A stretch of DNA of 64,000 bases, from contig NZ_CP157794.1 in NCBI RefSeq assembly GCF_040111675.1, forward strand, positions 4,299,501 to 4,363,500. The letters run 5' to 3'. Of this stretch, positions 1 through 10,369 are shown in pieces. The stretch's first letter is position 1. Each line of letters begins with the position of its first letter. The translations under genes were made by a program, and so were the position numbers. The notes under the pieces are model-generated. The model had not been told where the DNA came from. It saw only the letters and a program-made list of their open reading frames with translations, and ran no database searches. This DNA is from Salinarimonas sp. Lineage in GTDB: Bacteria; Pseudomonadota; Alphaproteobacteria; Rhizobiales; Beijerinckiaceae.

Positions 1-1
1 C

Positions 2-697
2 GCGCTCGAGGCGCTCGTCGCGACCGCCCTCGACGCCGCGCCGGAGCTCGCCGGCTGGCGGCTGTTCCCCTTCCACGGCTATTCCGACAACGCGATCTTC
101 GCCGCGGGTCCCTTCGCCGCGCCGACCGTCCAGCTCTGCCACGACCGCGACGCCTACAACCACACCGACGGGGACGCCCCGGAGCGGCTCGACCTCGCCG
201 TCCTGCACGCGGCGGCCGGGGCGGCCGCGCGCGCGGCGGCGTGGGCGGCCGCGCCCGACCTTCGGGAAGAGAGCTCGGCGCATGCGGCGGTGCGGCGTCA
301 CCGCCGCCGCTGTGCGCGGCGCGTGGAGGCCGTCGCCGGGCGGGCCGCCCGCGCCGGCGCGGAGGACTGGGCGCAGGCCTATCGGGCCGCGGCGACCGCT
401 CGTCTCGTGGACGGCGGCGAACGCCGCGAGCGGACCCCGCGCATCCGGCTGTCCGGCCCCCTCGACCTGCGCGGCATCCTCGCGGCGCTTCCCCCGGCGG
501 ACGCGGCGGAGATCGCGGCGGCGCGGGCGCGCGACAAGGCGACGCTCGCGCGCCTGACGAACGGCGTGGTGGCCTTGTGGGAGGGCGTGGAGCCGGCGGA
601 GGCGACGCGCGCCGCCTCGTTTGCGCTCGAGCAGCCCTTCGACGCGGGCACGACGGCGCTCGTGGAGCGGGTCCTGCACGCGATCAGCCGCCTGTGA
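2..697 (+). CDS. M28/DUF4910-like aminopeptidase, C-terminal part (5' end outside window)
   Basis: The open frame runs in from the left edge and gives 231 residues. The first part, with FHGYSDNAIFAAGP and then YNHTDGDAPERLD, resembles the end of M28-type zinc aminopeptidases of the DUF4910 group, where a histidine in an HTxxDxxExLD motif contributes to the metal site. The remaining 130 or so residues are Arg/Ala-rich and end in a compact helical segment, compatible with the winged-helix tail of this group. The catalytic domain proper is outside the window, so activity cannot be judged. It converges on the flavoprotein gene, and the two coding ends overlap by 14 bp. It may belong to the peptide cluster opposite, as a peptidase, but that is inference. 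Confidence 0.55.
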   Translation, partial: ALEALVATALDAAPELAGWRLFPFHGYSDNAIFAAGPFAAPTVQLCHDRDAYNHTDGDAPERLDLAVLHAAAGAAARAAAWAAAPDLREESSAHAAVRRHRRRCARRVEAVAGRAARAGAEDWAQAYRAAATARLVDGGERRERTPRIRLSGPLDLRGILAALPPADAAEIAAARARDKATLARLTNGVVALWEGVEPAEATRAASFALEQPFDAGTTALVERVLHAISRL

Positions 698-2672
698 GGC
701 CCCCTGCCCCGCCGCCGGCGCGGCCGACGACCGCCTGCGCCCAGGCGCCGAGCACGCCGGCCACGCCGCCGCTCGCGCCCGGGCGGGCGAGGCTCTCCTG
801 GAAGTAGCGCACGCCGTCGACGGGAGAGCCGACGAGGGTGAGGCGCGGGTCCGGCCGCCCGCGCGCGTCGAGGGCGTGATGACGGGGATCGATCGCGATC
901 GCTCCCGGCCGATAGCCGGGCTCCCCGTCCGCCCCGGGGTTCTCCCATTGCGTCACGAGCCCGCGATCGAGCAGCGCGCGGTAGAGCGGCGCGCGGCTGC
1001 GCCGCGGATCGAAGCGGCGGACACGCGCGCCGATCACCACGTCGGCGGCGACCCGACAGCCCGTCCGCGGGCCGATCACGGCGAAGCGCCCGCGCTCCGG
1101 GTCGAGCTCGACCCGCGCGCCCGGGCCGGCGGACAGGTCGAGGATGCCCGCCTCCGCGACGGCGAGGAGCTTCTCCATGGGCTCGACGGCGGAGCCGTTC
1201 GAGAGCCGGTTGTAGGCGCGCAGCCGCACGCGGCCGAAGCGCTCCTGCGAGGCGGCCGTGAGGCCCCCGAAGTCGAGCGCGGCCGCGAGCGCCGGCCGCA
1301 GCTCCCGCCAGGCGGCGTCGATGGCGGCCTTGAGCGGGTCGTCGAGATTGCCGACCCGCGCCCGCGCCAGATCGTCGGCGATCGCCGCGCGGGTGCGGGC
1401 CGCCCAGTCGCCGTCGCCCGGGGGAAGCGCGCCCTCCATCAGCGCGAGCCCGTCGAGACGGCGGGTCGATCCGCCGGCGCGCGCGGCCTCGTCCACGGCG
1501 GCGAGGAGCGCCGCCGACGCCTCGCCGGCAGACGCGGCCGGGGCGTCGAGGTAGCGCGCGAGCACGGTCGGGAGGGACGCGCGCAGGGCGCTCCCGACCG
1601 CGTCCGGCGCGGCGGCCGCGTGGTGGACGCAGGCCATCTCGGCGAGGACGAGGGGCAGCACGTCCCGGTCGAAATCGAGCTGCGCCGTCTCCCCGCGGCC
1701 GGGCAGGGTCGTCCATCGGCCGCGGCGCGCCCGCAGGCGCGCGACGGCGTCGATCGACAGGGCGTAGGCTTCATGCGGCGGCGCGCCGCGCGCGGCACGG
1801 ACGTCGCGGGCGCGGGCGAGGACCGGTCGCCCGGAGGGCGACACGCCGACGATCCGCCGCGGCTCGCGCCCGCCCGCCCGGTAGCGCAGCCGGCCGCTCG
1901 CGTCGCGCTCGAAGCCGCCGCCGCGCCCTTCCGTCAGGTGCAGCACGACGTCGATCGCCGACAGGCCGAGCCCGAGCAGCGCGACGGTCGCGCCGGCCGG
2001 CTCGAAGGCGTCGTCGAGCGCCGCGAGGGGGTACGGATCGTGGACGTAGGCGAGGCCGGCGCGCGCCTGCGCGAAGGCCGCGTACGCGCTCTCCGTCTCG
2101 TCGGGCGCGATGCGATCGTGGCCGGTGGCGAGGAGCGCGGCGCGGGTCGCGAGCCGCACGGGCGACCGGCCCTCGACCGTCACGACGAGCGGCGCGTCCG
2201 GACCCTCGCCCGCGGGCGCGATCGCGACCGCCTCGCCGGGGACGCGCGCCACCTCGCCGCCCCCGGCCTGCTCGAGGCGTGCGGCGTGGCTCGCGAAGGC
2301 GGCCGCGAGGGCGCGCCCGTGCAGGGCCCGCTCGGGGGTGTCGCCGCGCCCCAGCGCGGCGTCGAGGCGCCCCGCCGCGACCTCGCGCTCCTGCCAGGCG
2401 TGGAAGTCGGGCATCGGCCCCGAGCCGAGACCGAGCGCGACGTCGCCGGCCGCGCGGTTGAGGTAGCTCGTCGGCGCCTGGTCCCAGGCGTGGACCGCCC
2501 CGCAGCCGAAGGCGCCGTCGCGATCGACGACGGCGATCCGCAGCCCGCGCGGCGGCGCGAGCGTCTCCGCCGCCCAGGCGAGGCGCTCGAGCGCGTAGGT
2601 CGCGTGCGGCCCGCCGCCGACGACGACCGCGTCGTAGACGTCGTCCCATCCCTGATGTCGCGGACGGCTCAC
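684..2672 (-). CDS. FAD/NAD(P)-binding protein
   Basis: 662 residues. The N-terminus has a dinucleotide-binding fingerprint (DAVVVGGGPHATYALE, about residues 13-28) followed by an acidic strand end (IAVVDRDGAFGCG). A second glycine-rich element (VALLGLGLSAIDVV) lies further in, as in the FAD_NAD_binding_9 family of putative monooxygenases or oxidoreductases. There is no signal peptide or membrane segment, so it is cytoplasmic. The GTG start is chosen because it overlaps the stop of the upstream aminotransferase gene (GTGA) and the Rossmann motif begins soon after it. It is the last gene of the minus-strand operon headed by the small Cys-containing peptide. Substrate unknown; oxidation of a peptide or amino-acid intermediate is possible but unproven. 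Confidence 0.75.
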   Translation of the reverse strand: MSRPRHQGWDDVYDAVVVGGGPHATYALERLAWAAETLAPPRGLRIAVVDRDGAFGCGAVHAWDQAPTSYLNRAAGDVALGLGSGPMPDFHAWQEREVAAGRLDAALGRGDTPERALHGRALAAAFASHAARLEQAGGGEVARVPGEAVAIAPAGEGPDAPLVVTVEGRSPVRLATRAALLATGHDRIAPDETESAYAAFAQARAGLAYVHDPYPLAALDDAFEPAGATVALLGLGLSAIDVVLHLTEGRGGGFERDASGRLRYRAGGREPRRIVGVSPSGRPVLARARDVRAARGAPPHEAYALSIDAVARLRARRGRWTTLPGRGETAQLDFDRDVLPLVLAEMACVHHAAAAPDAVGSALRASLPTVLARYLDAPAASAGEASAALLAAVDEAARAGGSTRRLDGLALMEGALPPGDGDWAARTRAAIADDLARARVGNLDDPLKAAIDAAWRELRPALAAALDFGGLTAASQERFGRVRLRAYNRLSNGSAVEPMEKLLAVAEAGILDLSAGPGARVELDPERGRFAVIGPRTGCRVAADVVIGARVRRFDPRRSRAPLYRALLDRGLVTQWENPGADGEPGYRPGAIAIDPRHHALDARGRPDPRLTLVGSPVDGVRYFQESLARPGASGGVAGVLGAWAQAVVGRAGGGAGGLTGG

Positions 2673-3733
2673 GGCGCGCCTCCGCCGAGGAGCGCGGCGA
2701 GCCGCGCCCGTCGATCCGCCCGCATCGGCGCGCTGAAGCGCGCGAGCGCGCCCGTCGCGCCGTCGTGGACCAGGTGCCGCTTGCCGTGGATGCCGAGGCG
2801 CGCGAGCCGGGCGACGGCGTCGCGGTGGAGCGGGTCGGCGTCGGGGTCGTAGAGGAGATAGGGCAAGGCCGGGTGGGAGGCGATCGGCGCGGGGAACCCG
2901 GCGGCCGCCAGCGCGTCGCAGGCGGCGCGCCGCGCCTGCGCGATCGCGTCCCGCAGCCGCGCCTCGACCGCGTCGGGGAGCGCCAGGATCGCCTCGGCGG
3001 CGGCGAGCGAGAGGCTCGAGACCTGAAGCGGCGGCAGCGCGGCGGCGATGCGCGCGACGGCGTCGCGCCCCCCCGCCGCGTAGCCGCAGCGCAGGCCACC
3101 CATGCCGTAGGCCTTGCTCAGCCCGCGCAGGACCACGAGATTCGGCGGCATCGGCGCGATCCCGAGCGCGCTTTCGGCGGCTTGCATGTAGTTCGCGTTC
3201 GATTCGTCGACGACCACCGCCTCGAAGCCGCGCCGGCACAGATCCACGATCGCGGCTGGATCGGGCGCATCCGCGCTCGCGCGCAGGGAGGGATGCTCGA
3301 GGAAGACGACGTCGGCCCGCGCGGGCCCGAGCGTTCCGGCGACGGGGTCGACGGGGTCGACCGGGGCGGTCCCGAGCCGCGCGAGCCAGGCCGGCAGGTC
3401 GGGGTAGACGGAGCCCAGAACCGCCACACGCCGCGTCGCGAAGGCGCGCGCGGTCGCCGCCACGAGGGCGCCGACGCCGGCGCCGCAGACGAGATCGACA
3501 TCCTCCCCGAGCGCGAAGCGGCGGGCGACCGCCGGAGACAGGCGTGCGCGCCCGTAGGGATCGCCGACCGGGTAGATCGCGATGTGGCGGGCGGCGTCGG
3601 CGAGGACCGGCGCGAGCGCCTGCGAGAGCTCCGGCTCGAGCGCGTCGCGCTCGTCGCTCGTCCAGGAGAGATCGAGCCGTCCGGGCCCGTCCGCGAGCGC
3701 GAGGCCGCGATAGCTGTCGACGGCGAGCTTCAT
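2669..3733 (-). CDS. PLP-dependent aminotransferase, class I/II (histidinol-phosphate aminotransferase-like)
   Basis: 354 residues, usual length for fold-type I aminotransferases of the HisC/CobD type. The PLP-binding lysine lies in GLSKAYGMGGLRCGY (about Lys207). The aspartate contacting the pyridine nitrogen is in VVVDESNANY (about Asp176). The N-terminal part carries the substrate-binding YPVGDPYGR segment. It would transfer an amino group to or from an alpha-keto acid, or act as a related PLP lyase or decarboxylase. It sits between the phosphatase-like and flavoprotein genes with 4-bp overlaps on both sides, so it is co-translated with the peptide-associated cluster. Methanobactin operons also carry an aminotransferase (MbnN), a loose parallel only. 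Confidence 0.8.
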   Translation of the reverse strand: MKLAVDSYRGLALADGPGRLDLSWTSDERDALEPELSQALAPVLADAARHIAIYPVGDPYGRARLSPAVARRFALGEDVDLVCGAGVGALVAATARAFATRRVAVLGSVYPDLPAWLARLGTAPVDPVDPVAGTLGPARADVVFLEHPSLRASADAPDPAAIVDLCRRGFEAVVVDESNANYMQAAESALGIAPMPPNLVVLRGLSKAYGMGGLRCGYAAGGRDAVARIAAALPPLQVSSLSLAAAEAILALPDAVEARLRDAIAQARRAACDALAAAGFPAPIASHPALPYLLYDPDADPLHRDAVARLARLGIHGKRHLVHDGATGALARFSAPMRADRRARLAALLGGGAP

Positions 3734-4812
3734 CGGGCCTCCCAGACGGCGAAGGGGACGCGCCGCTCGGCCGGCGAGCCGCCGCCGTGGTCGTGGGTGT
3801 AGAGCGGGTCGGTCAGGAACCGGGTCCCGGTCGCCAGGAGGACGAGCGGGCCGACGCGCGCGCGATACGGCCCGGCGGGAAACAGCGCCTCGCGCCGCAC
3901 GAGCCGCACGTCCTCGGGCAGGAGGGTGCGCAGGGCCCGCTCGATCCGCGGGTCGTCGGCATCGTAGAGCCAGCGCATCCGCCCGGCCCCGCCGACGGCG
4001 AGCCCCTCGCGCTCGCAGAAGGCCGCGAGCCGCGCGGCGAGCCCGGGGTCGTGCCGGGTCGGGACGAGGCCGTGATCGGCATAGGCCACGACCCGCGCGC
4101 GCCTCGCGAGCCGCCCGGCCGCCGCGTCCAGCCGGGCGAGGAGGTCCTCCACCCAGGGGTCGACCCCGTGATGGTGGATGGCGAGGTCGATGTCGACATG
4201 GCACCAGACGAAGGCGGGCGCCGCCTCGTCGAGGGTGCGCGCGAGCGCGCTCTCCAGGGTCTCCACCAGCTCCCCCGGCTCGGGCCGCTCGACCGCGCGC
4301 CCGGCCAGGAGCCGCGGCCCCTCGCGGATCTCGGCGCCCGCGAGAAGCCGCGACCGCCAGGGGCCGTCGAGGTCGAGGAGATCCCCCGTGAGCGCGATCG
4401 CCCGCCGGCCGAGGCGCGCCGCGTCCTCGAACGCCGTCGCGACGGGGGGCAGAGCGAGGTCCGGATCGGGCGAGAGCACGAAGCGCGCGACCCGATCCGC
4501 CTCCGCGCGCTGCACGACGCCGAGCGCGCCGTGCTCGACGGGCGCGAGCCCCGTGAGGCTCGAGAGCCAGCCGGTCGACGAGGTCGTCGGCAGCTCCGCG
4601 GACATGGCGGAGATCCGCGCGCCGCGCCACAGGCGCCGCGCATCGGCGAGGCCGACGCCGTCGGCGCCGATCACGACGAGCGAACGGCCCCGCTCCTCCT
4701 CCCGGTCCATGAGAGCCGCGAGGCGCGCGCGCACCCCGCGCACGAGGGGCGCGCCGGCGCTCCCTCGGCGGCGCGCGCCGGGCGCATTCCAAGGAAGATC
4801 ACGCGCGCGCAC
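3730..4812 (-). CDS. Alkaline-phosphatase-superfamily protein (type I phosphodiesterase-like)
   Basis: 360 residues from a GTG start. Superfamily signatures are SLVVIGADGVG (metal-binding Asp), TTSSTGWLSSLTGLAP with a following HG (nucleophile Thr/Ser region), VDIDLAIHHHG, YADHGLV and THDHGG (metal-binding Asp/His). This pattern fits enzymes cleaving phosphomonoesters or phosphodiesters with two divalent metals. No signal peptide is seen, unlike many secreted members, which suggests an intracellular substrate. A start at 4710 (ATG, just before the first metal motif) is the alternative. I prefer 4812 because it slightly overlaps the preceding gene and has GAGG six bases upstream. It may process a phosphorylated or nucleotidylated intermediate together with the NDP-kinase-like neighbour. 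Confidence 0.7.
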   Translation of the reverse strand: MRARDLPWNAPGARRRGSAGAPLVRGVRARLAALMDREEERGRSLVVIGADGVGLADARRLWRGARISAMSAELPTTSSTGWLSSLTGLAPVEHGALGVVQRAEADRVARFVLSPDPDLALPPVATAFEDAARLGRRAIALTGDLLDLDGPWRSRLLAGAEIREGPRLLAGRAVERPEPGELVETLESALARTLDEAAPAFVWCHVDIDLAIHHHGVDPWVEDLLARLDAAAGRLARRARVVAYADHGLVPTRHDPGLAARLAAFCEREGLAVGGAGRMRWLYDADDPRIERALRTLLPEDVRLVRREALFPAGPYRARVGPLVLLATGTRFLTDPLYTHDHGGGSPAERRVPFAVWEAR

Positions 4813-5734
4813 CGGCGGCCTCGATCTCGCCGGCGAGCCCGGCGATGTCGCGATCGATGAAGTGGGAGCCGAAGGCGAAGACGTCGAGCGGATCGGGCTC
4901 GAGCCCGAGCGCCGCGATCGCCGCCTCCAGCGCGTGCAGGTCGAGGCGCGACCGGCCGGAGAGCGTCGCGTCGATCCGCTCCACCAGGTCGCGCGTGGCC
5001 GCCCCGGGCATCTCCGCGGCGGCGGCGCGCAGGCGCAGGGCCGCGGCCCGGGGATCCGCGTCGTGCTCGGGGATGCGGGCCGCGAGATCCGCGAGGACCG
5101 GCGCGAGATCGCCCGCGTCGGCGCCCGTTCGAACGGCGGAGAGGAGGCGGGGCCGAATGTCGGCGTCGGCGAGGATCGGCAGCTCGCGCAGCACGTCCAC
5201 CGTCTCGTCGGCGGAATGCAGGAAATTGAGGATGCTGTTGGGGCTGCCGAGCCGGGTGCGCAGATGCCACGGCTCGCGCCGCTCGACGAGGGCCGGCCCC
5301 TTCGCCGCGCTCATCCGCGCCGCGCCGCGCAGCGCACGGCCATCGGCCTCGTCGCGGAACAGGACGAGCAGCGCCGGCACGCGCGAGGCCCAGCGCGTGT
5401 ACAACCGGATCTTGTCGATCGTGTTGCGCCGGATCTGGTAGCGCCACAGCGCATGGATCACGGGCCCGGTGAAGGCGAGCGGCGCCGCCGCGACGGGCGC
5501 GAAGCCGTCTTCGCGCAGGAGCGCCAGGGCGGGCGCGACCTTGCGCGCGGCGACCGCGTCCGGCTTGAACAGGACGAGCGCGATCGGCGCCAGCGCCGGT
5601 GCGAGCGCGTCGCCCAGCGCGACGCGGGCCTCGGAGAGCCCTTCGCGGAAGAAGCTGTCCTCGGAATACAGCGCGCGCTTGCCGGAGTGCTCGGTGAGGG
5701 CGTCGAGGGCCCGCGCGGTCTCCTCGGGGCTCAC
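4799..5734 (-). CDS. Nucleoside-diphosphate-kinase-like protein with C-terminal extension
   Basis: 311 residues, about twice a normal NDP kinase. Residues 50-190 follow the NDK fold: IALVLFKPDA with the conserved Lys57, and a distal block GSPNSILNFLHSADET whose His173 matches the phospho-histidine of NDP kinases (HGSD in classic enzymes), followed by an REL segment. The middle differs from housekeeping Ndk and includes an Arg-rich insertion. Residues 195-311 are an Ala/Arg-rich helical extension without recognised motifs. The GTG start overlaps the monooxygenase stop (GTGA). Because the nucleophilic His is kept, phosphoryl transfer is plausible, but its place in an operon with a precursor-like peptide suggests a dedicated rather than housekeeping role. 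Confidence 0.65.
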   Translation of the reverse strand: MSPEETARALDALTEHSGKRALYSEDSFFREGLSEARVALGDALAPALAPIALVLFKPDAVAARKVAPALALLREDGFAPVAAAPLAFTGPVIHALWRYQIRRNTIDKIRLYTRWASRVPALLVLFRDEADGRALRGAARMSAAKGPALVERREPWHLRTRLGSPNSILNFLHSADETVDVLRELPILADADIRPRLLSAVRTGADAGDLAPVLADLAARIPEHDADPRAAALRLRAAAAEMPGAATRDLVERIDATLSGRSRLDLHALEAAIAALGLEPDPLDVFAFGSHFIDRDIAGLAGEIEAAGARA

Positions 5735-7059
5735 GGCGCGACCCGCCGTTCGGGGCGCGCGAGCCCGAGATGCTCGCGCAGCGTCGTTCCCTCGTAGCGC
5801 TCGCGGACGAGCCCGCGGCGGCGCAGCTCCGGAACGCACAGGTCGATGAAGGCCTCGAGCCCGCCGGGCAGCGCGGCGGGCATGACGTTGAAGCCGTCGG
5901 CGGCCCCCTCGACCACCCAGCGCTCCAGCTCGTCGACGACGCCGACGGCATCGCCGACGAGGAGGAGGTGGCCACGCGAGGCCGCGACCTCCCGGTAGAG
6001 ATCCTGCAGGGTGAGGCCGGCGGCGCGGGCGCGCTCCAGCAGGAGCGCGGGCCGGCTGCGGCTCGCGTCGGTCCGCAGCGTCTCGGGGAGCTCCGGCAGC
6101 GGGGCGTCGACGGCGAGGCCGGACAGGTCGATCTCGCCGAGCTGGCCGGCGAGCAGGGCGAGCCCGACCTCGGGCGTGATCAGCGCCTGCAGGCGCTCGA
6201 AGGCGGCGCGCGCCTCGGCCGCGGTGGGCGCGACGATCGGCATGACGCCGGGGAGGACCCGGATCGTGTCGGGGTCGCGGCCGAAGCCGGCGGCGCGCGC
6301 GCGCATGTCCTCGCGGAAGGCCCGCGCGGCGCCGATCTCGTTCTGCGCGCAGAACACGACGTCCGCCGTCCTTCCGGCGAGCGCGCGACCGGGCGGCGAC
6401 GCGCCCGCCTGGAGCACGACCGGCCGTCCCTGGGGCGAGCGCGGGACGTTGAGCGGGCCCCGGACGCGGAAATGCTCGTCCGCATGGTCCAGCGCACGCA
6501 GCTTGCCCGGGTCGAAGAAGCGTCCCGCCGGCTTGTCGCAGACGAAGGCGTCGTCAGCGAAGCTGTCCCACAGGCCCGTCACGACGTCGACGAAGGCTTC
6601 GGCGCGCGCGTAGCGGGCGTCGTGGGCGACATGCGCCTCGCGCCCGAAATTGCCGGCCTCGTGCACGTTCTGTGAGGTGACGAGATTCCAGCCGGCGCGC
6701 CCCGCGGCGACGTGGTCCAGCGAGAGGATCTGGCGGGCGACCGTGAAGGGATGGTTGTAGGTCGTCGAGGCGCTCGCCACGACGCCGATCCGCTCGGTCG
6801 CGGCGCACAGGCTCGCCGCGAGCGTCAGCGGCTCGAGCTGCGCGACGTAGTTGATCGCCGACCGGGACAGGATGTCGACGTCGCTGCCGCGCATCGCCAT
6901 GCTGTCGGGAAGGAAGACGAAGTCGAAGCAGGCGCGCTCGCAGGCGCGCGCCATCTCGCGATAGGCGGCGGGCTCGGCGCCCATTCGTGCGCGCGTCTCC
7001 GGCAGGCGCCAGGCGGCGACGTGGTATCCCGTCGGGTAGAGGAACGCCGCGAGGTGCAT
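5731..7059 (-). CDS. NtaA/SnaA/DszA-family FMN-dependent monooxygenase
   Basis: 442 residues. Motifs typical of the nitrilotriacetate / dibenzothiophene-sulfone monooxygenase branch of the bacterial luciferase superfamily are present: FVFLPDSMAM, the TTYNHPFTVARQ segment, and GRAGWNLVTSQNVHEAGNFG, followed by PQGRPVVLQAGASPPGR (flavin/phosphate-binding region). Such enzymes use FMNH2 from a separate reductase plus O2 to oxidise C-N or C-S bonds. No reductase gene is next to it. ATG 7059 is preferred over GTG 7065 because GGGAGG lies eight bases before the ATG. It follows the PP-loop gene by 31 bp and overlaps the NDK-like gene, so it belongs to the peptide cluster; oxidation of a Cys-derived group is a reasonable guess. 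Confidence 0.85.
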   Translation of the reverse strand: MHLAAFLYPTGYHVAAWRLPETRARMGAEPAAYREMARACERACFDFVFLPDSMAMRGSDVDILSRSAINYVAQLEPLTLAASLCAATERIGVVASASTTYNHPFTVARQILSLDHVAAGRAGWNLVTSQNVHEAGNFGREAHVAHDARYARAEAFVDVVTGLWDSFADDAFVCDKPAGRFFDPGKLRALDHADEHFRVRGPLNVPRSPQGRPVVLQAGASPPGRALAGRTADVVFCAQNEIGAARAFREDMRARAAGFGRDPDTIRVLPGVMPIVAPTAAEARAAFERLQALITPEVGLALLAGQLGEIDLSGLAVDAPLPELPETLRTDASRSRPALLLERARAAGLTLQDLYREVAASRGHLLLVGDAVGVVDELERWVVEGAADGFNVMPAALPGGLEAFIDLCVPELRRRGLVRERYEGTTLREHLGLARPERRVAP

Positions 7060-7090
7060 CGCCACCGCCTCCCCTCGAGCCGGGCTCGCC

Positions 7091-8305
7091 TCAGGTGGCG
7101 TCGGCGGGTTTCAGCAGCCGCCGGAACTTGACGAGCAGCGGAAACGGGACGAAGCGCTCGACGTGGAAGCCGAGATCCTCGTTGTACTCGTAGGTCGTCG
7201 GCACCTGCTCCGCGATCTGGGCGTAGCCCTGGACCATCCGCTCCGCCATGCCGGGAAACTGCGACTGCAGCGCGTACGCCATCGCGTAGTAGGTGTTGCG
7301 GCCGAGGGAAAAGCACGGGTAGCGCGCGTCGTAGTTCTCCCGCGAGTAGGTCGGGAAGCATCCGTCGATGATCTTCTTGGGGCACATCCACAGCGGCATG
7401 ACGAGATTGACCGGACCGATCGGCCGCAGCGGATGGCGCGCGGGCGCGAGGCCCTGCGACACCCGGTACAGCGACTCGCACAGGATGTCCTCGAGGTTGA
7501 TGCCCGTCGCGACGTAGGTCGCACCGAGCTCGGCGGCCCGCTTGCTCAGGGCGAGACGGATCAGCAGGGTGCCGAGGAACTCGAAGTCGTCGCCCGGGAA
7601 CTCGCGCTCGAACCGCTCGACCAGGCCGTCGCGGCCGGGCTCCATGCCGAGCAGGCGCATGACGTCGCCCTCCTCCACGACGTCGAGCGCGAGGCCGTAG
7701 CGGTCGCACAGGGCCTGCGCGCGCGGCACGCCGAGATCCCAGTCGGGAATGCCCTTGATGATCATGGGCCGGATCGTCGGGCCGTCCTCGCCGAGCCGCG
7801 TCAGGCCGTGCAGCATGGCGTTGCTGTCGCCGCCGCCGCTGACCCCGACCACGAGCGTCTCGCCGGCGGGGACGTGCGCCCGGATCGTCTCCGCGACGCG
7901 ATCGGCGATGATGCCGCGGCACTCCTCGGGGGTCAGCTTCTTCAGCAGCGTCTCGACGCGGGCGCCGTCGTTGTCCATGCGCTGGTAGATGAACTCCGTC
8001 GACTCGGCGCCCTCCACCTCGTCGGCGACGAGCGTGGGGTTCTTGATGTCGAACAGGAACGGGTTGATGTTCCGGTTGAAGTACAGGAACAGCTCCGCGC
8101 CGGCGGGGAAGCTGTCCAGGCGCCGGTCGAGGCCGGCGGCGAGGGCGAGGCTCTCGCCCGGCGCGGCGCGCAGGTACATCGAGACCGCGGACCAGGGAAC
8201 GCCGTTGCGCACCAGAACGTCCAGGATCCTGTCGGAGGGCGCGCCGGTCAGCGCCTCGCGTCCGTGCGTGGTGACGACCCAGATGGCGGGGGTCTCGGCG
8301 GACAT
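7091..8305 (-). CDS. PP-loop ATP pyrophosphatase-type enzyme with an unassigned N-terminal domain
   Basis: 404 residues. Residues 150-170 contain the PP-loop VVGVSGGGDSNAML (SGGxDS-type), so the enzyme probably adenylates a carbonyl oxygen, as TilS, TtcA, GuaA or asparagine synthetases do, before attack by N or S. The PP-loop domain continues with DWDLG and a GATYVATGINLEDILCESLYR segment resembling the TtcA/TilS core. The CxxC pairs of TtcA-type thiolases are not evident; two cysteines sit in MCPKKIIDGCF. Residues 1-110 (ending ELFLYFNRNINPF) are not part of the PP-loop fold and I cannot assign them. It is the first enzyme gene after the small peptide gene, 91 bp downstream, making it the prime candidate for activating the peptide. 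Confidence 0.8.
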   Translation of the reverse strand: MSAETPAIWVVTTHGREALTGAPSDRILDVLVRNGVPWSAVSMYLRAAPGESLALAAGLDRRLDSFPAGAELFLYFNRNINPFLFDIKNPTLVADEVEGAESTEFIYQRMDNDGARVETLLKKLTPEECRGIIADRVAETIRAHVPAGETLVVGVSGGGDSNAMLHGLTRLGEDGPTIRPMIIKGIPDWDLGVPRAQALCDRYGLALDVVEEGDVMRLLGMEPGRDGLVERFEREFPGDDFEFLGTLLIRLALSKRAAELGATYVATGINLEDILCESLYRVSQGLAPARHPLRPIGPVNLVMPLWMCPKKIIDGCFPTYSRENYDARYPCFSLGRNTYYAMAYALQSQFPGMAERMVQGYAQIAEQVPTTYEYNEDLGFHVERFVPFPLLVKFRRLLKPADAT

Positions 8306-8349
8306 GGCGCGCTCCTGCTGATGCGACCGGGTACTCGGCTACGCCACCC

Positions 8350-8387
8350 GAGCGCGCACCGCGCGCCGAAGCGCCCGGAGCGCGCTC
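8350..8387 (-). terminator. GC-rich stem-loop between peptide and PP-loop genes (possible attenuator)
   Basis: On the transcribed strand GAGCGCGC and GCGCGCTC form 8-bp arms around a 22-nt loop. That loop contains a perfect GCGC-TTCG-GCGC hairpin (8363-8374), i.e. a C(UUCG)G tetraloop. No U-tract follows, so it is not a textbook intrinsic terminator. Such structures between a small first gene and its downstream enzyme genes often limit read-through or protect the upstream mRNA; that role here is inference. Confidence 0.5.
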
Positions 8388-8396
8388 TTCGACGAC

Positions 8397-8597
8397 TTAC
8401 TGCGCGCCCGTCTCGCAGCTCGCGCCGCAGATCACCTCGAGCCCGAACTTGGACGCGGGGACGCTCTGACGCCCGACGCGGGCCGCCTCGAGATCCGCGA
8501 GCGAGACCACCTTCGTGCGAGCCGTGGTCGCCCGGGCGACGACGATCCGCTTGAGGTCGAAGTTGCTCTGGGTGGAGACATTCGCCTTGATGTTCAT
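8397..8597 (-). CDS. Small Cys-containing peptide, candidate RiPP-like precursor
   Basis: 66 residues, starting MNIKANVSTQSNFDLKRI and ending FGLEVICGASCETGAQ. An SD-like AAGGGG lies seven bases before the ATG; an upstream in-frame ATG would add 14 unconvincing residues. The first 45 or so residues are polar and charged like a leader (mixed Lys/Arg and Asp/Glu, with VVSLADLEAARVG). Only the tail holds cysteines, two in CGASC, with Gly and a C-terminal Gln. I recognise no named family. The gene has its own sigma70-like promoter and stands first before a PP-loop ATPase and oxidative, PLP and phosphoryl-transfer enzymes. A modified-peptide precursor is the simplest reading. Methanobactin cores also use Cys in CGSC-type motifs, but MbnB/MbnC are absent. 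Confidence 0.65.
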   Translation of the reverse strand: MNIKANVSTQSNFDLKRIVVARATTARTKVVSLADLEAARVGRQSVPASKFGLEVICGASCETGAQ

Positions 8598-8646
8598 CGC
8601 GTTACCCCTTCTCGCCGGTGGCAGCCCCATGCTGGCCACCTTCAGA

Positions 8647-8676
8647 AGTAGAACCTAGCGATTGCTTATCTGTCAA
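8647..8676 (-). promoter_or_regulatory. Sigma70-like promoter of the peptide operon
   Basis: Reading the minus strand, a perfect TTGACA (-35, 8671-8676) is followed after 18 bp by TCTACT (-10, 8647-8652, 4 of 6 matches to TATAAT). It lies about 50 bp before the peptide start, with its -35 at the very end of the amidase gene. This suggests the peptide cluster can be transcribed separately from the amidase pair upstream. Confidence 0.45.
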
Positions 8677-10124
8677 GCTGGAATAGCGCCAGCTTCAGAT
8701 CGACGATCGCTGGTCGATTCGTGATTTAGCGATGCGGCGATCATGGGTTTCGGGAAGGGCCAGGTACCGGCTGTGGCGAGCGCCTCCTGCAGCCAGCGCG
8801 CGGCATCCAGGAGGCGTCGATCCGCCATCGGCGCGCCCATGAGCTGCATGCCGAGGGGCAGGCCCTCGGGCGAGAGGCCGGTCGGCAGGCTCGCGGCCGG
8901 TGCGCCGAGCACGTTGGCGACGATCGTTCGCGTCGCCGTGAGGGCCGGCGGCGGGGGCCAATCCCGCGTGAAGGCCGAGAGGAGCGGCGCCGGGTGCAGC
9001 GAGCCCGGATAGATCACCGCGTCGAGCCCGGCGAGCCGCGGACGCGACGCCGCGACGAGCTCCGCGCGCAGGCGCTGCGCGTCGACGTAGTCGGCGGCGG
9101 TCAGGAAGGCGCCGGGCGCGACGCGCTGATAGGTGTAGCGGCCGAACCCCTCGGGCGCCTCGGCGATGGCCCGGGCGTGAATGGCGTAGGCCTCCGCCGT
9201 CATGAGGACCCGGCCGCAGGCGTCGAAGAGCTCGAAGGCCGGCAGCGCGACGTCCTCGACCGCGATGCCGGCCCCCTCGCACAGGCCGATCGCGGCCTCG
9301 ATCGCCGTCGCGACCGCCGGATCCATCGTCGGAGCGCGCTCGAGATGCCCGCGAACGACGCCGATCCGCAGCCGCGCGGGCTCGGCGGGCGCGGGCCCGT
9401 GGAAGGCGATCGCGCGGGCGACGCTCGCCGGGTCGTCCGGGTCGTGCCCGGCGACGACGTCGAGCACGTGCGCGCAATCCTCGACGCGCTCCGCCAGGAC
9501 GCCGACGTGGTCGAGCGCCCAGGAGAGCGGGAACATGCCGCGCCGCGACACGAGGCCGAAGCTCGGCTTGACGCCGCTCACCCCGCACAGGCTCGCCGGT
9601 CCGCGCACGGAGCCGCTCGTGTCCGACCCGAGCGCGAAGACCGCGAGCCCGGCCGCGACGGCGGCGCCGCTCCCGGACGACGACGCGCCGGTGAAGCGCT
9701 CGGGGTCCCAGGGATTGCGCGCGGGCGGGTACGGGCAGTCCGGGCTCGGCCCGCCGAGCGCGTATTCGTGGGTGGCGAGCTTGCCGAGGCACACCGCCCC
9801 CGCGGCGGACAGGCGCGCGATCATCGGGGCGTCGTGGCGAGCGGGCCCGCTCGGCTCCAGCCGCGCGTTGCAGGTCGTGGGCGCGCCCGCGACGTCGATG
9901 ATGTCCTTGACCGCGTAGGGAATGCCGTGGAGCGGCCCGAGGTCGACGCCCTCCGCGAGCAAGCGATCGGCCGCCGCCGCCTCGGCGCGGGCGCGCGCCT
10001 GCGTCACGTGGATGAAGCTGTGCAGCGTGGGATCGAGCGCGGCGATGCGGGCGAGCCTGGCCTCGACGAGCGCGGTCGCGGTGGTGCGGCCCGCGCGCAG
10101 GTCCGCCGCGAGCGCGCGGATCAT
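8673..10124 (-). CDS. Amidase-signature hydrolase (GatA/AtzE-like)
   Basis: 483 residues. The Ser-cisSer-Lys triad of amidase-signature enzymes is visible: Lys73 in IPYAVKDIID, the GASSSGSGAAVAAG loop near residue 147 (cis-Ser), and the nucleophilic Ser near 172 in SDTSGSVRGP. The loop reads GASSSG rather than the usual GGSSGG. The ATG overlaps the stop of the small GatC/AtzG-like gene (ATGA), the same pairing as AtzG-AtzE and GatC-GatA. It probably hydrolyses a carboxylated urea-type or other amide. The last 20 or so residues are charged and differ from the family. Its 3' end holds the -35 of the peptide promoter, so it may be transcribed into the next cluster. Confidence 0.85.
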   Translation of the reverse strand: MIRALAADLRAGRTTATALVEARLARIAALDPTLHSFIHVTQARARAEAAAADRLLAEGVDLGPLHGIPYAVKDIIDVAGAPTTCNARLEPSGPARHDAPMIARLSAAGAVCLGKLATHEYALGGPSPDCPYPPARNPWDPERFTGASSSGSGAAVAAGLAVFALGSDTSGSVRGPASLCGVSGVKPSFGLVSRRGMFPLSWALDHVGVLAERVEDCAHVLDVVAGHDPDDPASVARAIAFHGPAPAEPARLRIGVVRGHLERAPTMDPAVATAIEAAIGLCEGAGIAVEDVALPAFELFDACGRVLMTAEAYAIHARAIAEAPEGFGRYTYQRVAPGAFLTAADYVDAQRLRAELVAASRPRLAGLDAVIYPGSLHPAPLLSAFTRDWPPPPALTATRTIVANVLGAPAASLPTGLSPEGLPLGMQLMGAPMADRRLLDAARWLQEALATAGTWPFPKPMIAASLNHESTSDRRSEAGAIPA

Positions 10125-10369
10125 CGCGGCGGCTCCGCGCCGTCGCGGGGCTCCGCGACGCCGGCGACCGCGCCGTCCGCGACGAAGACGCAAGCCGGCT
10201 CGATCCTCGCGTCCCTGGACGCGCGCACCAGGGCGACCTTCTCCGAAAGCGCGGCGACGTTCGCCGCGAGGGGGGCCAGCTGATCGTCGGGGACGCGCAG
10301 GCCGAGCGCGGCGCAGCGCGCTGCGAAGGCGTCGCGTCCAGCGTCCGGCGGCTCGCCGTGATGGGACAT
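10121..10369 (-). CDS. AtzG/GatC-like small amidase partner
   Basis: 82 residues. The core RCAALGLRVPDDQLAPLAANVAALSEKVALVRA is a two-helix segment like the N-terminal part of AtzG (DUF4089) and GatC, which wrap around the amidase subunit and are needed for its stability. The tail IEPACVF replaces the usual EPAPVF-type segment. It is translationally coupled to the amidase gene by ATGA. It is the first gene leftward from the divergent promoter region 10370-10579, so the pair is likely an operon. A second, more typical AtzG-AtzE pair lies at 20929-22535. Confidence 0.6.
   Translation of the reverse strand: MSHHGEPPDAGRDAFAARCAALGLRVPDDQLAPLAANVAALSEKVALVRASRDARIEPACVFVADGAVAGVAEPRDGAEPPR

Follow-up and report, generated by a model that had tools for sequence, protein, structure and literature searches.

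Gene organization and the precursor peptide

The window analysed here, a stretch of 64,000 nucleotides from a Salinarimonas genome (NZ_CP157794.1), holds at its left end a gene cluster in which a 66-residue peptide and a PP-loop protein are accompanied by a set of oxidation, transamination and phosphoryl-transfer enzymes (Table 1). The genes that a sequence-only reading of this DNA had named were found at the places it gave, on the minus strand; likewise, the peptide, MNIKANVSTQSNFDLKRIVVARATTARTKVVSLADLEAARVGRQSVPASKFGLEVICGASCETGAQ, has the leader-like N-terminus that was described and carries its sole two cysteines in the tail. Conservation of this peptide beside the PP-loop gene had been predicted, and a homologue search found it in 18 of the 19 loci of the window type (the window itself, the plasmid record L005 and L012–L028), which belong to Alpha-, Beta- and Gammaproteobacteria, Actinomycetota and Myxococcota. 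With the window peptide as query, phmmer recovered the precursor in 17 of the 18 other loci; the 19th locus, L025, starts at a contig end. The precursor is located approximately 4–8 kb away from the PP-loop gene in L012, L020 and L021. A chance small open reading frame (ORF) is ruled out by this recurrence.

The tail is the most conserved part of the precursor and follows the consensus ASK(F/Y/H)GLExI(C/T)GASCETGAQ, with five positions (A, S, E, G, S) invariant in all 18 sequences and glutamine as the last residue in 14 of them. Over the last 25 codons the third codon position varies in all 25 columns, the first in 18 and the second in 14, and certain residues that never change in the protein are encoded by all four codons across the set. 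Variation of this kind is what a coding sequence would show, and neither the loss of the small ORF in relatives nor the frame-disrupting tail changes that would have refuted the earlier reading were encountered. On the other hand, the weight that had been placed on the two tail cysteines was not borne out, given that the first is cysteine in 13 sequences and threonine in five, and the second is cysteine in 17 and glycine in one. These substitutions also bear on the idea of a metal-binding peptide (chalkophore) produced by a route convergent with that of methanobactin. Such a role would be consistent with two cysteines close to the end of the tail, and with the presence of an aminotransferase and a flavoenzyme, as in methanobactin clusters; nevertheless, neither cysteine is constant, the association with an enolase described below would be left unexplained, and we regard this explanation as hardly credible. 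A chelator based on the cysteine pair was rejected on account of the threonine in five of 18 sequences, and no MbnB or MbnC family was detected with Pfam and NCBIfam among the window proteins scanned. A regulatory or structural role, with the peptide no substrate at all, is very improbable, considering its leader/tail layout, the fixed distance to the C-terminus, and that its constant partner is an ATP-activating enzyme, with a peptidase also present in 18 of the 19 loci.

Regarding the arrangement of the genes, the peptide had been proposed to head an operon from a promoter of its own. However, genes for an 82-residue protein and an AtzE-like amidase precede it on this strand, the amidase stop being 75 bp away from the peptide start, and no sigma-70-like site was found between positions 8300 and 8800 with a simple consensus search, promoters of other types being beyond its reach. 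The statement that nearly all junctions are 4-bp overlaps holds for three of the six within 684–8676, the others being gapped (91 bp between the peptide and PP-loop genes, 25 bp between the PP-loop and monooxygenase genes) or showing an overlap of 14 bp (NDK-like and phosphodiesterase genes). Considering eight junctions, 4-bp overlaps occur at four, i.e., those of the 82-residue protein with the amidase, the monooxygenase with the NDK-like gene, the phosphodiesterase with the aminotransferase, and the aminotransferase with the flavin adenine dinucleotide (FAD) protein. All the listed genes are present; nevertheless, the cluster is larger than was described, since it extends to the left past the window with genes for an M28 peptidase, for an enolase and for another NDK-like protein. 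The peptidase and the altered enolase, located at the window edge or outside it, had been missed.

Matches to Pfam or NCBIfam models were obtained, for the window proteins encoded between 684 and 10369, with the NtaA/DmoA-type monooxygenase (LLM), phosphodiesterase, aminotransferase, FAD-NAD(P) and amidase families. Among these window proteins, none corresponds to a class-defining enzyme of the ribosomally synthesised and post-translationally modified peptides (RiPPs); among the relatives scanned, a Streptomyces locus encodes an asparagine-synthase-like and a PqqD-domain protein. The peptide, the PP-loop protein, the NDK-like protein and the 82-residue protein have no match in these databases (the first two tested up to an E-value of 0.01). 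A known defence system was discarded as well, given that PADLOC showed no match for seven proteins, including the peptide and the PP-loop protein. No Pfam, NCBIfam or PADLOC model fits either member of the pair, and the sequence comparisons support a conserved, RiPP-like precursor/PP-loop pair without an assigned class, accompanied by genes for oxidation and transamination.

Table 1. Features of the cluster in the window and in related loci (window positions unless a locus or genome is named)
Feature	Position	Strand	Evidence or remarks
66-residue precursor peptide	8397..8597	-	NFxLK leader-like motif, LE(A/S)xR motif, tail ASKFGLEVICGASCETGAQ; small-ORF homologues in 18 of 19 loci, window included
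PP-loop protein	7091..8305	-	residues 1–92 ubiquitin/beta-grasp fold, 93–404 TtuA-like
NtaA/DmoA-family FMN monooxygenase (LLM)	5731..7065	-	TIGR03860, 506.4 bits against a cut-off of 279.7
NDK-like phosphotransferase, 311 residues, GTG start with 4-bp overlap	4799..5734	-	conserved His; Pfam hits of relatives
Alkaline-phosphatase-superfamily phosphodiesterase/phosphatase	3730..4812	-	PF01663
Pyridoxal-phosphate enzyme, HisC/CobD-like aminotransferase	2669..3733	-	Pfam and NCBIfam
Flavin N-monooxygenase related to L-aspartate N-hydroxylase (8cp2)	684..2672	-	family scan, homology, residue alignment
AtzE-like amidase	8673..10124	-	below NCBIfam AtzE cut-offs; in 11 of 19 loci
82-residue protein	10121..10369	-	4-bp overlap with amidase start; GatC/AtzG-like by position only
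M28/DUF4910 peptidase gene, 3' part (start left of window)	1..697	+	convergent with FAD gene; family in 18 of 19 loci
Second NDK-like gene and enolase gene	L011:389-2572 and 2668-4014 (own genome, left of window)		before the M28 peptidase gene
ClpX genes	L070:7524-8888	-	
ClpX genes	G531:C7, G533:C174, G534:C488, G538:C2		

The PP-loop protein and its relatives

A structure model of the PP-loop protein, obtained from a 27-row alignment (without L030, which is in two frames, L036, which is cut at a contig end, and L006–L008), reached a predicted local distance difference test (pLDDT) score of 91.8. In the VIA-align ranking TtuA came first (5ztb, Z 21.9, residues 93–404), followed by NcsA (20.5) and TilS (18.7). 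Residues 1–92, modelled alone, form a ubiquitin-like domain (pLDDT 86.7) for which Foldseek lists the Ras-binding domains of Raf at the top (one match with E < 0.001), and also ubiquitins and TtuB (5ztb_E at rank 10 and 5gha_F at rank 15, E about 0.006). Judging by fold only, the protein looks like TtuA with a fused TtuB-like domain. The sequence-only interpretation, which is supported in part, had missed this fusion and the kinship of the FAD protein with aspartate N-hydroxylases.

Both the PP-loop fold and the SGGxDS motif are present in this protein. On the contrary, the CxxC motif of NcsA (CSFC), whose cysteines presumably bind an iron-sulphur cluster, aligns with a stretch of the PP-loop profile free of cysteines, and a tRNA-thiolase function was rejected on this basis. 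In TtuA, the tail of TtuB brings sulphur to the active site, and by analogy the tail of the peptide may enter the active site of the PP-loop protein. A thiolation in the manner of TtuA, in which the enzyme would transfer sulphur to the peptide to give a thioamide or a thiocarboxylate, could be expected from the best structural matches (TtuA and NcsA) and from the fused TtuB-like domain; it is decidedly improbable in our view, considering the non-cysteine residues found in place of the CxxC motif, and that the fused domain does not end in the C-terminal Gly-Gly of TtuB.

Few genomes carry the PP-loop gene. It was found in one of 149 genomes of the family, that one being the genome of the window organism (G000), and in four of 385 genomes of the class, one of them as a weak partial match; in a sample of the phylum the profile matched 39 of 398 genomes, at full length only in G000 and as weak partial matches in the others. 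A collection of 84,980 species yielded 30 loci, two of them spurious tblastn matches that were dropped (L040 and L041), and a set of plasmids yielded four; none of 83 stretches from the viral contigs searched was confirmed. In 12 of 14 remote loci a small ORF precedes the PP-loop gene in the same orientation; L033 and L034 gave none. When 11 remote precursors were aligned from their C-termini (L038, twin of L039, left out), 22.1 bits were obtained over 14 columns, compared to 14.1 ± 1.0 when the sequences were shifted at random and 15.0 ± 0.6 when the tails were shuffled, with no value as high in 5000 trials of each; these precursors were chosen partly by eye, the look of the tail included, which inflates the significance to an unknown degree. 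This pattern anchored at the C-terminus was likewise absent from the sequence-only reading.

The gene content of the remote loci is much reduced. In L006 and L032, the peptide and PP-loop genes are followed by a major facilitator superfamily (MFS) gene and a Clp-like AAA gene; L029 and L030 show an MFS-like gene scoring under the Pfam cut-off, and Geobacillus pGS18 has genes for a phosphorylase, a Clp-N/AAA protein and, going by the annotation, an MFS protein. Behind the flavobacterial PP-loop genes (L033–L035) comes a nucleotidyltransferase-like gene, in place of the exporter gene. The PP-loop gene of Bordetella hinzii (L030:9938-11181) is split over two frames in the assembly used, either as a pseudogene or through a sequencing error, and plasmid II of Xenorhabdus (L006:22293-24260) carries, by annotation only, an insecticidal delta-endotoxin family gene approximately 9 kb from the PP-loop gene. 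Three of the minimal systems carry the Clp-like AAA protein, and five actinobacterial genomes encode a further, full-length ClpX in the region of the cluster; it adjoins the enolase gene in three Streptomyces and is located approximately 5 and 13 kb away from it in G538 and G531.

The accompanying enzymes and the altered enolase

The FAD protein is homologous to the L-aspartate N-hydroxylase 8cp2 over residues 15–653 (E 1.7e-28; profile E 5.2e-70). The residues compared are those discussed in PMC10404684. In an alignment without L022 and L005, the family keeps N62 (10 of 10 ungapped rows; two of the 12 rows are gapped) as well as Arg266, Arg409, Arg412 and Arg577 (12 of 12 each). In contrast, Arg276, Asn413 and Arg416 of the aspartate and sulphate sites are found in none of the 12 rows, and Arg13 falls in a gap in nine. 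Given the loss of these three residues, the substrate of the FAD protein is probably different.

The NDK-like family shows one histidine (His207 in the numbering of the 345-residue translation) and one lysine that are invariant in 16 of 16 rows, and two of three relatives scanned exceed the Pfam NDK cut-off; the window protein itself has no Pfam match. In the phosphodiesterase, residues D51, S78, D209, H213, D246 and H247, which we take to form the metal site, are invariant in 11 rows, and H342 is nearly so; a profile search of the PDB with this protein returned no match at an E-value of 0.001. Likewise, the M28 peptidase has invariant residues in 15 rows (without L015, L016 and L025) to which a metal-site role can presumably be assigned. 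Alignment A6 was made without L019. The Streptomyces locus mentioned above adds, besides the protein similar to asparagine synthase and the PqqD-domain protein, an AurF-like oxygenase and ClpX, with relatives in two other Streptomyces; the AurF-like N-oxygenase (L070:6345-7436) is a further hint of N-oxygenation.

The cluster enolase differs from the usual enzyme in the residue that follows an active-site aspartate, presumably a metal ligand. The genome of the window organism encodes two enolases, one with the sequence LDCAATEF located elsewhere, and the cluster copy with LDPASSEF, in which proline replaces the usual cysteine, valine or alanine. An enolase gene is present in seven loci and lies further along the same contig in two Streptomyces, so that an extra or altered copy with its catalytic motifs kept is linked to the cluster in nine of 18 cluster genomes (the plasmid record L005 was left out of this count), and all nine have the proline. 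In a third Streptomyces the gene sits on another contig which, to judge from the order of its genes, extends the cluster. Altogether, the Pro-enolase was found in 12 of the 18 genomes, i.e., the nine linked copies, the one on the continuing contig, an unlinked extra copy in Pantoea (G535), and the sole copy found in a metagenome-assembled genome (MAG) of Siliceabacter (G544). In two records named Candidatus (Para)burkholderia (L023 and L025), the cluster is present and no Pro-enolase was seen.

In phylogenetic trees, the cluster copies from Streptomyces, Saccharothrix and Actinokineospora group with the proteobacterial cluster enolases, away from the housekeeping copies of their own genomes. 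In several lineages the altered enolase travels with the cluster. A smaller tree, which lacks rows from cluster-free Myxococcus, includes M. dinghuensis in a single clade of cluster enolases; the larger tree, which omits four of the 27 rows of the smaller one and draws on seven of the 14 additional Myxococcus sequences and on 16 of the 28 from alphaproteobacteria, gives a different position that is considered below. Among 15 genomes of the genus Myxococcus, each with one enolase, the residue is proline in the two that match the PP-loop protein in full, cysteine in seven and valine in six; PP-loop matches were obtained in five of the 15, three of them covering about 34 residues (E around 7e-4) and not counted as the gene. 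Since the cluster enolases keep the ordinary motifs, and M. dinghuensis yielded no enolase other than the one with proline, the Pro-enolase very likely is active in glycolysis.

From these sequence data, a resistance copy appears to be the simplest reading of the cluster enolase. The opposite view, that the enolase, along with the phosphohydrolase and a phosphoenolpyruvate (PEP)-utilising protein of Pantoea, acts in biosynthesis on a phosphorylated intermediate, finds some basis in the phosphotransfer and phosphohydrolase genes that share these clusters. We consider it quite unlikely, as the motifs are those of ordinary enolases, the single copy found in M. dinghuensis must serve glycolysis there, and no enolase was found on the cluster contig in nine of the 18 genomes.

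A possible route to an enolase inhibitor and its relation to known systems

In our reading, these observations are best accommodated by a gene cluster that is mobile and directs a peptide-templated (RiPP-like) biosynthesis of a class not yet described. The peptide would be recognised through its NFxLK and LExxR leader-like motifs and its C-terminal block of fixed length, and the TtuA-type enzyme with its TtuB-like domain would adenylate a carbonyl at or near the C-terminus, where the residue destined to become the product would then be built or attached. N-oxygenation of that group by the flavoenzyme related to aspartate N-hydroxylase and by the NtaA/DmoA monooxygenase would be followed by transamination and by phosphorylation and dephosphorylation (the NDK-like and alkaline-phosphatase-like proteins), and the M28 peptidase and the amidase would release the product. 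This small, anionic, N-oxidised molecule would inhibit enolase, and the Pro-enolase would let the producer survive. N-oxygenation, phosphoryl transfer and a spare enolase would cohere in such a scheme, since enolase is inhibited by nitro- and hydroxamate-type mimics of its reaction intermediate, and also by the natural product SF2312. We judge this pathway, with its C-terminal activation, N-oxygenation, phosphorylation, enolase-directed product and protective Pro-enolase, to stand evenly balanced between right and wrong.

Several results weigh against it. The set of enzymes varies among the 19 loci: the M28 peptidase family is present in 18, the FAD protein in 14, the NDK-like protein in 12, the amidase in 11 and the LLM in 10, many of the contigs being short. 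Neither Pantoea locus (L005 and L017) showed an NDK-like gene; the first of them encodes a PEP-utilising domain protein, a nucleotidyltransferase and a protein weakly similar to thymidylate kinase, below the cut-off. Six of the 18 cluster genomes lack the Pro-enolase (G539, G540, G541, G543, G545 and G546), some of them MAGs or leaf-nodule symbionts. Conversely, of the 27 alphaproteobacterial control enolases that could be read, two have the proline, and neither of the genomes concerned carries the PP-loop gene (of 28 controls L115 was unreadable, the residues of L097 and L110, C and S, were taken from a second motif match, and four divergent places were left out). The two Myxococcus genomes with the cluster are sisters and represent one event, and the larger tree groups this pair with cluster-free Myxococcus enolases, beside the other cluster enolases and outside the mobile clade.

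The precursor itself could also be the source of the product, as in a classical RiPP whose core is the tail (ICGASCETGAQ), modified by the enzymes and excised by the M28 peptidase. The tail is the region best conserved, and in the minimal relatives, where little more than an MFS-like protein, and at times an AAA protein, accompanies the peptide and its PP-loop partner, the peptide probably is the product. In the window-type loci, nevertheless, a modified peptide is an unlikely product: an 11-mer is improbable as a ligand of the enolase active site, the N-hydroxylase, aminotransferase and NDK families mostly take small molecules, and the first cysteine of the supposed core varies to threonine.

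Extending the peptide-templated pathway to all the relatives, an enzyme from the lineage of tRNA thiolases and ubiquitin-like carriers may have been repurposed to act on the C-termini of ribosomal peptides. Minimal systems, from Geobacillus to Xenorhabdus (peptide, PP-loop protein, MFS-type exporter and sometimes a Clp-like AAA protein), would yield modified peptides, and elaborated ones would use the peptide as the scaffold for a mimic of the enolase intermediate that is N-oxidised and phosphorylated, crossing phyla together with a resistant enolase. This wider proposal is offered tentatively, with less than even confidence. If true, it would provide a new class-defining enzyme for peptide-templated chemistry and a way of inhibiting enolase by a route other than that of the phosphonate SF2312; an enolase with the Asp-Pro pair next to a cluster would be a marker for more of them, and an uncharacterised precursor/PP-loop family would gain a concrete target.

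Among the matches listed from the open-access literature, which leaves subscription papers aside, no description of the peptide/PP-loop system was found, and comparison is made here with systems that share one part of it. The minimal relatives resemble the microcin C system in having a small peptide gene, an adenylating enzyme and an MFS exporter; the enzyme is the ThiF-like MccB there and a PP-loop protein here. Tuning of a thiolase fold to a peptide would have its closest structural counterpart in the tRNA thiolation enzymes TtuA/TtuB and NcsA (5ztb, 5gha, 6scy), which share the PP-loop core fold of residues 93–404 and a ubiquitin-fold partner like TtuB; in contrast, the partner is fused in the protein described here, the CxxC motif is absent, and the gene is paired with that of a peptide. 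As for the aspartate N-hydroxylases CreE and FzmM (8cp2; PMC10404684), homology extends over residues 15–653 with the catalytic asparagine and four arginines kept, and the difference resides in the loss of Arg276, Asn413 and Arg416.

SF2312, a natural enolase inhibitor (PMC13302981) and a phosphonate, would have its target in common with the proposed product. An ordinary phosphonate pathway was discarded in the genome of the window organism, which shows no PEP mutase at the curated cut-off; among 10 cluster genomes, this one and seven others have a match below that cut-off or none, and two exceed it (G531 and G541), the PEP mutase of G531 being on a contig other than that of the cluster. No peptide aminoacyl-tRNA ligase (PEARL) was detected among the proteins scanned (those of the window and part of the cluster genes of relatives). 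Even so, the logic proposed here is nearest to that of the PEARL/pearlin pathways for 3-thiaglutamate and ammosamide (PMC9303977, PMC9016710, PMC11117183): a ribosomal scaffold peptide reportedly bears at its C-terminus the residue under construction, which is released by proteolysis, and the difference is that the activating enzyme here is a TtuA-like PP-loop protein, from another lineage.

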